Program-made: the position numbers and the translations under genes | Shown: piece after piece, positions 1,229 through 61,881 of the stretch | How the letters are laid out: every line of letters starts with the position of its first letter | Position numbering within the stretch: the first letter of the stretch is position 1 | NCBI GenBank assembly: GCA_944386455.1 | Contig: CALXBC010000006.1 | Location: forward strand, 1 to 64,000 | Origin: an uncultured Clostridia bacterium | GTDB taxonomy: Bacteria; Bacillota; Clostridia; Oscillospirales; Ruminococcaceae | Reading direction: 5' to 3' | DNA: 64,000 bases | The notes under the pieces: model-generated | What the model saw: only the letters and a program-made list of their open reading frames with translations | The model's database searches: none | Told to the model about the DNA's origin: nothing

Positions 1229-1465
1229 CCGGGGATGGCAATGGATGTGGACAACAGCAAGATGGAGAACGGGACGAACATCAGGCTGTGTGCCTACAAC
1301 AACGCAAATGCGCAGCAGTTTGGCTTTGTGAAGCTGTCAAACGGTGCTTACCGGATTGTGACTAAAATAACAAGCGGCCAAAGGGGAGCATCAGTGGAAT
1401 CCAGCTCAACTGCTGACGGCGGTAATATTCACCAGTGGGCCTACAGCGGTGCTGCAAACGACCAT
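1229..1465 (+). repeat. Ricin-B-like lectin module, copy 1
   Basis: This 237-bp stretch matches 5194-5430 with about a dozen differences by eye. It encodes a beta-trefoil fragment with the usual ricin-type signs: GMAMDVDNSKMENGTN, then NNANAQQFGF, then a second subrepeat ending in GNIHQWAY. The similarity stops abruptly at the same codon (His of ANDH) in both copies, where unrelated sequence begins. Shorter related pieces lie near 3602-3700 and 6256-6387. Confidence 0.7.
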
Positions 1466-3028
1466 TGGTTTTTGGAGAGATGTGTTACAAAATTATCTTC
1501 TTACAAAACTTTCTCTGCTTTTGATGTTGGTGATAGTAGTCAGGATGAAGCTGGATTAGTTCAAACTTGGATGGAACGAATGGGTTATACCGATGTAGGC
1601 ACATTTAATAACGCCAATAAGAATGTTTCGGCTCAAATGATAAAAGAAATAGGTCAATATTCCGATATAGTTTATGTTAATGGGCATGGTGATCGTGCAG
1701 CATCATTATCAATACAGAACAGCAGTGGTTCATGGAGCGAATACCTATCAGCAGCGGCAGGTATGATTAATTATTATTCTCCCAACATTCCTAAAACTGT
1801 AATCGGAGCTAACTTTTTATCTGGAAGTTCTACTAAAACAAATTCCTTTTGGAATCAAAAAACTAAATGGGGTATTTTGGCACAATGTTCACAACTAAAC
1901 TATGGCTCACAACAGTTAGGTAATCACTGGAATGGATTAAATAATGCTCAAATTTGGGCAAGAACGATGCTGGGAGATGGTCAAAGAATGCATGGCTATC
2001 TTGGGTATTATGAAAGTGCGCCACCTGCGCAGGCACATTATGATAGATTAAATAATTTTTTTGAAGCAGCGGAGCCTAATGATAATATGCCGTTGATTTT
2101 AGCATGGAAAAATGCCAATGACGGAGCCCTTTTTGGATACGGAAGTTCAAATTGGGCAGCTATTTATCATTCTGCCAATGCTCTAGACAGATTCAGTTCA
2201 TTTACTTCAACAACACCCAGTAATACCCCATATAATATTTATTTAGTGAGCCGGGCGCGTTCAGCATCTTCAATTTTATTAAGTAGTACTAAAACAAATG
2301 ACATTAACCAAAAATTTTTCAATCCGATGTTTTCTGACACGAATAATATATCAATTACACTTCAAGATGAACCAATTGCAGATCAGTTAAAGCAGTCCAT
2401 ATCTAAAAAATTGGTGCAGGGGGTAAATACTAAATTGAAATTTCATGATAATGGATGTATTGAGTACTTTAATTATAAAACGAATTATGGATTGGAAAAT
2501 TTAAACATTGCTATGACTGACACACAAGCAATTCAGTTCGCCGAATTGGAACTTGAGCATCTGGGGTTATTGCCGAATTCTGATTATCGTGCAGTTGTAT
2601 CAAGAACTGAACGCAGGAAATTAGACTTAACAAGTCATTCTGGCTTTACCCCCCCTGAAACAATAGAAATTAAAGTTACTTTCTATAGACAAATTAATCA
2701 AATAGACTTGTTATCAGATAATAACGAAGGAATATCAATAAGCTTTAACAAAAATGGAATATGTGATTTAAGGTATAAATGGAGCAAGATACATTTTGGT
2801 TATAACTTATCTCCAGAGAATTATATAACAAGGGCACAAGCCGAAAAATCCTTTGTTAAAAACTATCATCAATTATATCCAAATCAAGGTCGAGAAACAG
2901 AGAAAAGTATATCTAATGCTTATTACATAAAAAATGGAAAAACAATCCCTGTTTGTATTTTCTCTGATGATAGCAGTTACTTGAACCCTTTCATGATTCA
3001 TGCATTAAATGGAGAGATTGTTATATGA
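1235..3028 (+). CDS. Lectin-module fusion with a caspase-like (clan CD-like) peptidase domain
   Basis: 597 residues. Residues 1-77 are a truncated ricin-B-like lectin; residues 85-330 are a separate domain; residues 370-597 are a third, possibly PepSY-like part that I cannot name. The middle domain has a hydrophobic strand ending in NGHG (His151) and a later strand WGILAQC (Cys218), the order seen in caspase-fold peptidases such as gingipain or in the DUF6345 group. The reading frame opens at 1193 with no upstream start. ATG 1235 has no good ribosome site and no signal peptide, so the gene may be a fragment or a silent cassette. The next gene overlaps its stop by 4 bp. The frame is real; the fold is inference. 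Confidence 0.55.
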   Translation: MAMDVDNSKMENGTNIRLCAYNNANAQQFGFVKLSNGAYRIVTKITSGQRGASVESSSTADGGNIHQWAYSGAANDHWFLERCVTKLSSYKTFSAFDVGDSSQDEAGLVQTWMERMGYTDVGTFNNANKNVSAQMIKEIGQYSDIVYVNGHGDRAASLSIQNSSGSWSEYLSAAAGMINYYSPNIPKTVIGANFLSGSSTKTNSFWNQKTKWGILAQCSQLNYGSQQLGNHWNGLNNAQIWARTMLGDGQRMHGYLGYYESAPPAQAHYDRLNNFFEAAEPNDNMPLILAWKNANDGALFGYGSSNWAAIYHSANALDRFSSFTSTTPSNTPYNIYLVSRARSASSILLSSTKTNDINQKFFNPMFSDTNNISITLQDEPIADQLKQSISKKLVQGVNTKLKFHDNGCIEYFNYKTNYGLENLNIAMTDTQAIQFAELELEHLGLLPNSDYRAVVSRTERRKLDLTSHSGFTPPETIEIKVTFYRQINQIDLLSDNNEGISISFNKNGICDLRYKWSKIHFGYNLSPENYITRAQAEKSFVKNYHQLYPNQGRETEKSISNAYYIKNGKTIPVCIFSDDSSYLNPFMIHALNGEIVI

Positions 3029-5169: not shown

Positions 5170-5433
5170 GTGACCGGCGGCAGATGGTACACGCCGGGTA
5201 TGGCGATGGATATGGACAACAGCAAGATGGCGAACGGGACGAACTTCAGGCTGTGTGCCTGCAACAACGCGAATGCGCAGCAGTTTGGCTTTGTGAAGGT
5301 GTCAAACGGTGCTTACCGGATTGTGACTAAAATAACAAGCGGCCAAAGGGGAACATCAGTGGAATCCAGCTCAACTGCTGACGGCGGTAATATTCACCAG
5401 TGGGCATACAGCGGCGTTGCAAACGACCATTAG
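5170..5433 (+). pseudogene. Ricin-B-like lectin module, copy 2, orphan
   Basis: 87 codons starting GGRWYTPGMAMDMD and ending ANDH followed by TAG. The part 5194-5430 is nearly identical to 1229-1465. After the TAG the frame stays readable for a while (WQRDPLAGHTYAG), so the stop lies at the module boundary. There is no signal peptide and no clear ribosome site. This is a lectin cassette without an intact partner domain, either a remnant or a donor for recombination. Confidence 0.6.
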
Positions 5434-5486
5434 TGGCAGCGTGATCCGCTGGCCGGACATACTTATGCAGGAATCCGGTATAATAG

Positions 5487-17186: not shown

Positions 17187-17214
17187 TTGCATTATGGAAT
17201 CACTGTGTTATAAT
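17187..17214 (+). promoter_or_regulatory. Promoter of the B12 operon
   Basis: TTGCAT at 17187-17192, 16 bp, TATAAT at 17209-17214. Transcription would start near 17221, directly before the riboswitch. Confidence 0.6.
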
Positions 17215-17220
17215 AAAACT

Positions 17221-17450
17221 ATAAAAATGAATAACCGCAATATGGATCTACAATTGGGAAGAAACGGTGAAAAGCCGTCGCAACAGCCATTACTGTGATT
17301 GATGATGAAAAGGACACAGGCCATTGGGGCAGCATGCTCTGAGAAGGCGTCCTTTTTCGGTATATCCGTAAGTCATAAGCCAGGAAACCAGTCATATTGC
17401 TCAGGACAAAGCAGTTACCTTTGGGCAATGGAAGGGTAGGGCTAAAAATC
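17221..17450 (+). promoter_or_regulatory. Cobalamin riboswitch
   Basis: The conserved parts occur in order: TTGGGAAGAAACGGTGAAAAG near 17254, GCCGTCGCAACAGCC, TTACTGTGA near 17290, and a B12-box-like AAGCCAGGAAACCAGTC at about 17377-17393, then a pairing region to about 17440. The following genes encode vitamin uptake and corrinoid enzymes, as expected. The usual effect of this class is to shut the operon down when adenosylcobalamin is plentiful. The exact ends are approximate. Confidence 0.85.
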
Positions 17451-23971: not shown

Positions 23972-23981
23972 GCTTTTATAA

Positions 23982-24025
23982 AAAATAAACAGAGTCATTC
24001 CTATAAAAATGGCTCTGTTTATTTT
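23982..24025 (+). terminator. Terminator of the DUF1835 gene
   Basis: AAAATAAACAGAG at 23982-23994 pairs with CTCTGTTTATTTT at 24013-24025, followed by more T. Confidence 0.8.
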
Positions 24026-24165
24026 TTATAAATTATGATTCTGATATTACAGGCAGACGAAAAGAGAAGACCGACATCTCAAGAACAGGTTCGATTTTAA
24101 ATGGAGTATTGGGACTTTATTTACGAATTTAATCTGTCTGACAACAGGCAGTATGATTTACAATC

Positions 24166-25527: not shown

Positions 25528-25783
25528 AAAATCCTGCCAATATTTGAGCGTGTCGACTTTTTCGACACGCTCTCGAGGGATAAATACAATCACTGCGGCA
25601 AAGCCTTGTTCTGTGTTTTTTCCCGACTCCCCCCTTTTTCGTCAAAAACCGGCTCTGCAAAAGGCTTTGCCTTTGCTCACCGCCGGTTTTCTCTCAAAGA
25701 GTCACACAGGCGGCGCATGTCCGCCTGTGTGACGATTTTTTATATTACCGTTTTTCGACAGACTGAATATTCCGCAGGATTTT
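25528..25783 (+). terminator. pyrE terminator split by an inserted element
   Basis: AAAATCCTGC at 25528-25537 and GCAGGATTTTTT at 25774-25785 are the two arms of one rho-independent terminator. Without the 221-bp element and one AATATT, the loop would be about 9 nt. AATATT is present on both sides (25539-25544 and 25766-25771), as in a target-site duplication. Confidence 0.75.
25545..25765 (+). repeat. Structured 221-bp repeat element, copy A
   Basis: Begins with the hairpin GAGCGTGTCGA-TCGACACGCTC. A conserved middle contains a stem AAACCGGC/GCCGGTTT enclosing a smaller hairpin, followed by a 13-bp terminator-like stem GTCACACAGGCGG/CCGCCTGTGTGAC with a T-run, and the element ends TTTTTCGACAGACTG. 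Two further copies occur at 46995 and 61590 in the opposite orientation. Stem changes between copies are compensated. Confidence 0.85.
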
Positions 25784-46963: not shown

Positions 46964-46994
46964 AAAACCGCCCGGCTTCTGCCGGGCGGTTTTA
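46964..46994. terminator. Terminator, first copy of a 31-bp direct repeat
   Basis: AAAACCGCCCGGC and GCCGGGCGGTTTT form a 13-bp stem with a TTCT loop. The identical 31 bp stand again at 47215-47245, on the other side of repeat element B. Confidence 0.85.
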
Positions 46995-47214
46995 GTCTGT
47001 CGAAAAACGATAAAAAATAAAAAATCTTCACGCAGGCGGACATGCGCCGCCGGAGTGACACCTTGAGAAAAAGCCGGCGGTGAGCAGAGACAAAGTCTCC
47101 TGCGGAGCCGGCTTTTGACTGAAAAGGGGGAGTCGGGGGAAAAACGCAGAACAAGGCTTTGCCGCAGTGATTGTGTTTGTCCCTCGAGAGCGTATCGAAA
47201 AAGTCGATACGCTC
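46995..47214 (-). repeat. Structured 220-bp repeat element, copy B
   Basis: Reads on the minus strand in the same order as copy A. The end hairpin is GAGCGTATCGA/TCGATACGCTC, where GTGTCGA of copy A has changed with its partner. The middle stem AGCCGGC/GCCGGCT differs from copy A (AACCGGC/GCCGGTT) by a compensated pair. It is flanked exactly by the 31-bp terminator repeats. Confidence 0.85.
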
Positions 47215-47245
47215 AAAACCGCCCGGCTTCTGCCGGGCGGTTTTA
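47215..47245. terminator. Terminator, second copy of the 31-bp direct repeat
   Basis: Identical to 46964-46994. The -35 region of the addB promoter begins 2 bp after it. Confidence 0.8.
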
Positions 47246-61562: not shown

Positions 61563-61589
61563 AAGCCCCGAGCAAATAGCTCGGGGCTT
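61563..61589. terminator. Terminator beside repeat element C
   Basis: AAGCCCCGAGC at 61563-61573 pairs with GCTCGGGGCTT at 61579-61589. Its first arm is repeated at 61811-61821 on the other side of the element. Confidence 0.8.
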
Positions 61590-61810
61590 CAGCCTGTAGA
61601 AAAACTACAAATTAAAAAAATCGTCACGCAGGCGGACATGTGCCGCCGAAGTGACACCACAAGAGAAAACCGGCGGTGAGCAGAAGCGAAGCCTCTTGCG
61701 GAGCCGGTTTTTGACTGAAAAGGGGGAGTCGGGGGAAAAACGCAGAACAAGGCTTTGCCGCAGTGATTGTGTTTGTCCCCCGAGAGCGTGTCGACTTTTT
61801 CGACACGCTC
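61590..61810 (-). repeat. Structured 221-bp repeat element, copy C
   Basis: Same order and orientation as copy B. The end hairpin is GAGCGTGTCGA/TCGACACGCTC with its loop changed to AAAAAG-type sequence. The middle stem AACCGGC/GCCGGTT and the terminator-like stem GTCACTTCGGCGG/CCGCCTGCGTGAC are kept. Flanked by copies of the terminator arm AAGCCCCGAGC. Confidence 0.85.
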
Positions 61811-61881
61811 AAGCCCCGAGCGAAATGCCCAGGTCTTGTCTGCTTAAGCGCACACCAATCATCTACTGTCTGACCATCTTT

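Follow-up and report, generated by a model that had tools for sequence, protein, structure and literature searches.

What is inserted at the end of pyrE, and why does it lie between the two arms of a hairpin? In the window (the whole stretch of 64,000 nucleotides analyzed here), the sequence downstream of pyrE reads ...TTAG AAAATCCTGC C AATATT T GAGCGTGTCGA ... TTTTTCGACAGACTG AATATT CC GCAGGATTTT TT..., in which the arms AAAATCCTGC (25528-25537) and GCAGGATTTT (25774-25783) pair perfectly over 10 bp. We asked where the borders of the insert lie, whether it belongs to a repeat family, what kind of enzyme could have moved it, and what its presence means for the termination of pyrE transcripts.

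Borders of the insert at the pyrE terminator

We refer to the insert as copy A. The left half of the split pyrE terminator (25528-25544, plus strand) consists of the left arm, a C and a first AATATT (25539-25544). It is followed by the element (25545-25765, 221 bp, plus strand) and then by a second AATATT (25766-25771), CC, the right arm and TT, the second AATATT through the right arm spanning 25766-25783 on the plus strand. A perfect inverted repeat of at least 10 bp at the spacing of these arms was found at 13 of 20000 random window positions. When the arms were joined (AAAATCCTGC-CAATATTCC-GCAGGATTTTTT), the sequence folded into a stem of 10 bp closed by a loop of 9 nt (z = -5.1). Re-reading the coordinates confirmed what a sequence-only reading of this DNA had described, a perfect 10-bp stem split by an insert with AATATT on each side, and gave an element of 220-221 bp. 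The same reading took the borders to be known to the base. The positions are right within a base; the border common to the family is GAGCG...CTG (25546-25765 in its strict form), and in copy A the left AATATT and GAGCG are separated by an additional T, so the borders of this copy are set to within 1 base rather than exactly.

Copies, structure and spread of the element

Using blastn, we detected two further copies in the window: copy B (about 46991-47217) and copy C (about 61588-61812), both on the minus strand. This gut-type Clostridia genome as a whole (G000; 2.1 Mb in 59 contigs) contained about 40 matching places, mostly with 77-89% identity to copy A. The main type of element is 220-224 bp long and non-coding, with terminal repeats GAGCGTGTCGA and CAGTCTGTCGA. 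A search of G000 for the terminal motif revealed extra sub-families, one with a length near 100 bp and the others of about 300 bp, and several sub-families together make at least 43 element copies. Loci L068, L080, L082 and L075 represent sub-families with the same ends and different interiors, and L075 includes the mini version of about 100 bp. No transposase gene was found in any element copy or sub-family. Like a MITE, the element is short, non-coding and multi-copy and has terminal inverted repeats.

The left end, GAGCGTGTCGA-CTTTT-TCGACACGCTC (25546-25572, plus strand), places the left terminal repeat within a perfect 11-bp hairpin. In this hairpin 95-100% of cells are paired across 43 copies, and copy B has a compensated change from G-C to A-T. 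An inner hairpin at approximately 25650-25697, with arms AAAAACCGGC...GCCGGTTTT, is flanked by A/T on both strands in the manner of a bidirectional terminator, and its between-copy changes are paired in both arms. It is followed by a terminator-like hairpin, GTCACACAGGCGG-CGCATGT-CCGCCTGTGTGAC plus GATTTTTT (25701-25740, plus strand), and by the right terminal repeat, which reads CAGTCTGTCGAAA on the minus strand (25753-25765). In the RNAalifold consensus, long-range pairs join nearly invariant columns and are uninformative; paired changes occur in the local hairpins only.

In the sister species (G001) this element family is present at about 80% identity. DNA matches to the element were present in 13 of 198 genomes of the bacterial family, and G001, G034 and G140 contain similar element families. 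A scan with one genome per species detected the end hairpin in many Clostridia, among them Acetanaerobacterium elongatum and Angelakisella massiliensis, and relatives of the element occur across Oscillospirales. Elements of other genera differ in their interiors; the end hairpin, the hairpin with the GCATGTC loop (25701-25740 in copy A) and the ...ACAGnCTG end are conserved. The loop GGCGCATGTCC of the 3' hairpin (window 25708-25722; also L084, L087 and L092-L095) is kept across genera despite the differing elements.

We compared pyrE-zapA spacers and post-pyrE regions of relatives and found no literal base-level empty site among them, a consequence of the lack of terminator-sequence conservation across species. 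In G001, pyrE does not adjoin zapA. In G183 and G060 the terminator after pyrE is uninterrupted, and its arms are unrelated in sequence to those at copy A. For the sites of copies B and C, gene order is partly conserved in G001 and the terminators are not alignable. A viral contig (IMGVR_UViG_3300012983_000053, 557-587) considered as a joined site was rejected as a chance pattern match to a phage terminator, which lies in unrelated DNA, has a different loop and does not match the window.

Duplication of whole hairpins at insertion sites

We laid out 66 flanks and found a complete hairpin, usually with terminator-like A and T runs, on each side of most copies. Copy B (222 bp; 46993-47214, minus strand) lies between a full 29-bp terminator hairpin at 46964-46992 and an identical one (0 mismatches) at 47215-47243, both given on the plus strand. 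Copy C (221 bp; 61590-61810, minus strand) has an intact 27-bp terminator hairpin at 61563-61589 and a decayed second one, with 6 of 27 mismatches, at 61811-61837 (both plus strand). Abutting direct repeats were present at 36 of 43 copies in G000, 8 of 13 in G001, all four in G034 and both in G140. For the four genomes combined this amounts to 50 of 62 distinct copies, the repeat being a hairpin in almost every case, as compared to 7 of 3217 shifted controls; the distinct-copy counts (50/62 and 36/43) were de-duplicated by hand from test rows. The element thus has target-site duplications, as expected of a MITE. The direct repeat was 6-38 bp long (median 26) among 46 automatically paired copies, and because its length follows that of the palindrome, there is no fixed stagger. 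The element was found in either orientation to the T-tract about equally often (21 vs 19, with 6 ties), and inspection by eye suggested no tendency for one hairpin copy to be more decayed than the other. Hairpin duplications were also carried by 20 loci from the genome scan in other Clostridia genomes, and by none of the non-Clostridia pattern matches of that scan.

The exceptions in G000 were of several kinds. At copy A only 6 bp of the loop (AATATT) are doubled; L009 has GCCGGC, L080 a 10-bp repeat that is not a hairpin, and L014 two hairpins that have diverged. L018 and L021 have a whole hairpin on one side and a remnant on the other. The two sides of L042 (G000:C11:58931-59714) carry different hairpins, perhaps a rearrangement left by recombination of one copy with another. 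Since most copies double the whole hairpin and not a 6-bp piece of its loop, copy A is an exception and not a template for the borders of the family. That copy A is a mobile repeat inserted into the pyrE terminator loop, as the sequence-only reading had it, is still the best reading of this copy and is partly supported, but it does not describe the family, of which copy A is atypical.

A link to IS1182-family elements

Searches with PF13751 and PF05598 identified elements of the IS1182 family within the same bacterial family. Three are complete ISs: L209 (1562 bp, with a 39-bp duplication), L211 (1510 bp, 31-bp duplication) and L214 (1583 bp, 29-bp duplication). Each duplication is a perfect or near-perfect hairpin, and the transposases match NCBIfam NF033551 with 389-397 bits (cut-off 270) as well as Pfam PF05598 and PF13751. 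L211 starts with CAGTCTGTCGAAAAA, 15 bases identical to the right end of several copies of the element. The left terminal repeat is also similar to IS1182 ends, less so than the right end. In A. elongatum, left ends L168, L172, L173 and L175 match right ends L109, L105, L100 and L103 hairpin for hairpin, and the hairpin shared by each pair of contig ends indicates four IS1182 insertions with whole-hairpin duplications. Counting these insertions and the complete ISs together, whole-hairpin duplications were present at IS1182 copies in G009, G026, G094 and G034.

Because these ISs share both ends and target duplications with the element, the element can be tied to IS1182, and an IS1182-family transposase is the most likely enzyme to cut and join it. 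G000, which is 97.8% complete, yielded no IS1182-type transposase (PF13751 or PF05598), and G001 had no PF13751 match above the cut-off. We therefore infer the mobilizer from relatives of G000. A MITE can outlive its mobilizer, and repeated ISs often drop out of draft assemblies. We read the element as an IS1182-mobilized MITE that recognizes hairpin structure and would be mobilized in trans.

Several other systems were considered. A repeated IS5-type transposase in G140 was rejected as the mobilizer; its ends, GGCAATACCGCA, are unrelated. The IS1202 family, considered for its long duplications, was dropped once IS1182 elements had been found whose ends match, and IS1634 was considered and dropped as well. 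In the sister species, L099 (G001:C37, 11-994) has an IS5-type transposase (NF033581) at the contig start, followed by AAACTTTCCACAGTCTG, which is right-end-like.

Proposed joining at hairpin feet or loop

Our main reading, to which we give a probability of roughly 0.8, is that copy A belongs to a short non-coding MITE family moved in trans by IS1182-family DDE transposases, with joining at the feet or the loop of a hairpin. A scheme for such events was drawn in 2017 (PMC5678879): in the sections of that paper used here, a cruciform is attacked by the IS; if the joint forms at the 5' feet, the whole stem-loop is duplicated (pathway b), and if it forms in the loop, the loop is duplicated (pathway c), both being hypothetical branches. 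These sections give no example of pathway b or c. If the element moves in this way, the target hairpin would be extruded as a cruciform, with the extrusion and the strand chemistry both presumed, and gap filling after joining would leave the element flanked by a complete stem-loop on each side. Most copies would then correspond to pathway b, with the 5' feet joined, and copy A to pathway c, with the loop joined. At copy A the joints would fall inside the pyrE terminator loop, so that AATATT alone is doubled and the stem is split. The dependence of duplication length on the palindrome is the reason to propose that structure is recognized. We lean slightly toward the broader proposal that one system reads DNA secondary structure and joins at hairpin feet or loop, that the fold and not a stagger sets the duplication length, and that this system spread terminator-homing MITEs through Oscillospirales.

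Copy A could also have reached its present state indirectly, if the full hairpin was first doubled and the inner half of each hairpin copy was later lost. Full duplication is the rule among the copies, one-sided hairpin remnants exist at L018 and L021, and L009 has its GCCGGC on one side only, a pattern that would follow from a deletion running from one GCCGGC repeat of its own hairpin to the other. Such a history is nevertheless unlikely for copy A; two deletions, independent of each other, would have had to stop precisely at AATATT, where a single insertion in the loop yields the same result.

The identity of the enzyme and the origin of the flanking hairpins also allow other accounts. The element might be moved by a different transposase, for example the IS5-type enzyme (NF033581) of the sister species, with contig end CAGACTGTGGAAAG, which is present in the genome that had no PF13751 match over the cut-off and whose element has an end resembling the right end of ours. 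However, only one end of that element is readable and no whole-hairpin duplication is demonstrable there, the transposase is not in G000, and the IS1182 elements show ends and duplications both; we regard its involvement as doubtful, to about the same degree as later loss at copy A. Far less probable is that the flanking hairpins have nothing to do with transposition and are either pre-existing tandem hairpins or part of a structural RNA gene near terminators. The element is indeed strongly structured, with some pairs changing in both arms, but the flanking hairpins differ from locus to locus, match fully or almost fully between the two sides, and abut the element ends, and such pairs are also found at IS1182 elements. 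An Rfam search of the element gave no match near a gathering score.

Comparison with known systems

The IS1182 family (NF033551; PF05598 and PF13751) and the element have in common terminal repeats CAGnCTGT(C/A)GAAAAA, palindromic, terminator-like targets, and whole-hairpin duplications, which were seen at the three complete ISs and at the four pairs of contig ends. Unlike these ISs, the element has no coding sequence, measures about 220 bp rather than about 1.5 kb, and has a left repeat that folds into a hairpin with its own inverted copy. IS1272, an IS1182-family member, inserts at terminator hairpins with loss of the target hairpin and no duplication, according to the sections of PMC4923244 and PMC5678879 used here, so the IS1182 family behaves in more than one way. 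The same sections describe hairpin targets chosen by structure for IS1272 and TnSha1 of staphylococci, with no sequence consensus and in either orientation, as for the element, and several of these target hairpins are proven terminators (PMC4923244, PMC5678879). With IS1272 and TnSha1 part or all of the target hairpin is reportedly deleted, whereas with the element the hairpin or its loop is doubled. The measured case, IS1272, is a deletion, and the dozens of copies in G000 and relatives look like products of the other branches of the cruciform-attack model. Because of this resemblance to the products of pathways b and c, the model could be tested with the transposase of A. elongatum or another IS1182 transposase.

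Long target duplications are known from two other families. Some IS1202-family members have duplications over 15 bp, like the element, but the family has a TnsB-like transposase and other ends, and its short-duplication members target dif sites (PMC10132070). In IS1634 and IS1549 the direct repeats are likewise long and variable in length, with no proposed mechanism; unlike those of the element, they range from 8 to 514 bp, are not described as palindromes, and belong to another transposase family (PMC2266710).

Termination at pyrE and other features of the window

The pyrE terminator stem is broken in copy A. The element carries a 13-pair hairpin followed by GATTTTTT, plus a second, A/T-flanked hairpin, and given these hairpins pyrE transcripts probably still end at copy A. 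Judging from its sequence, the terminator-like hairpin of the element is the probable means by which termination is kept. At whole-hairpin copies, the downstream hairpin with its T-tract would also keep termination. The element shows a route to occupying terminators while probably leaving termination working.

The window contains other repeats and structured sequences. Positions 23975-24032 form a near-perfect palindrome of 58 bp (89.7%), and a cobalamin riboswitch (Rfam RF00174, 65.6 bits) lies at 17211-17410. A direct repeat of 243 bp is present at 1227-1469 and 5192-5434 with 94.7% identity; its first copy overlaps the start of the ORF at 1235-3028, the beginning of which by eye resembles a ricin-type lectin repeat.
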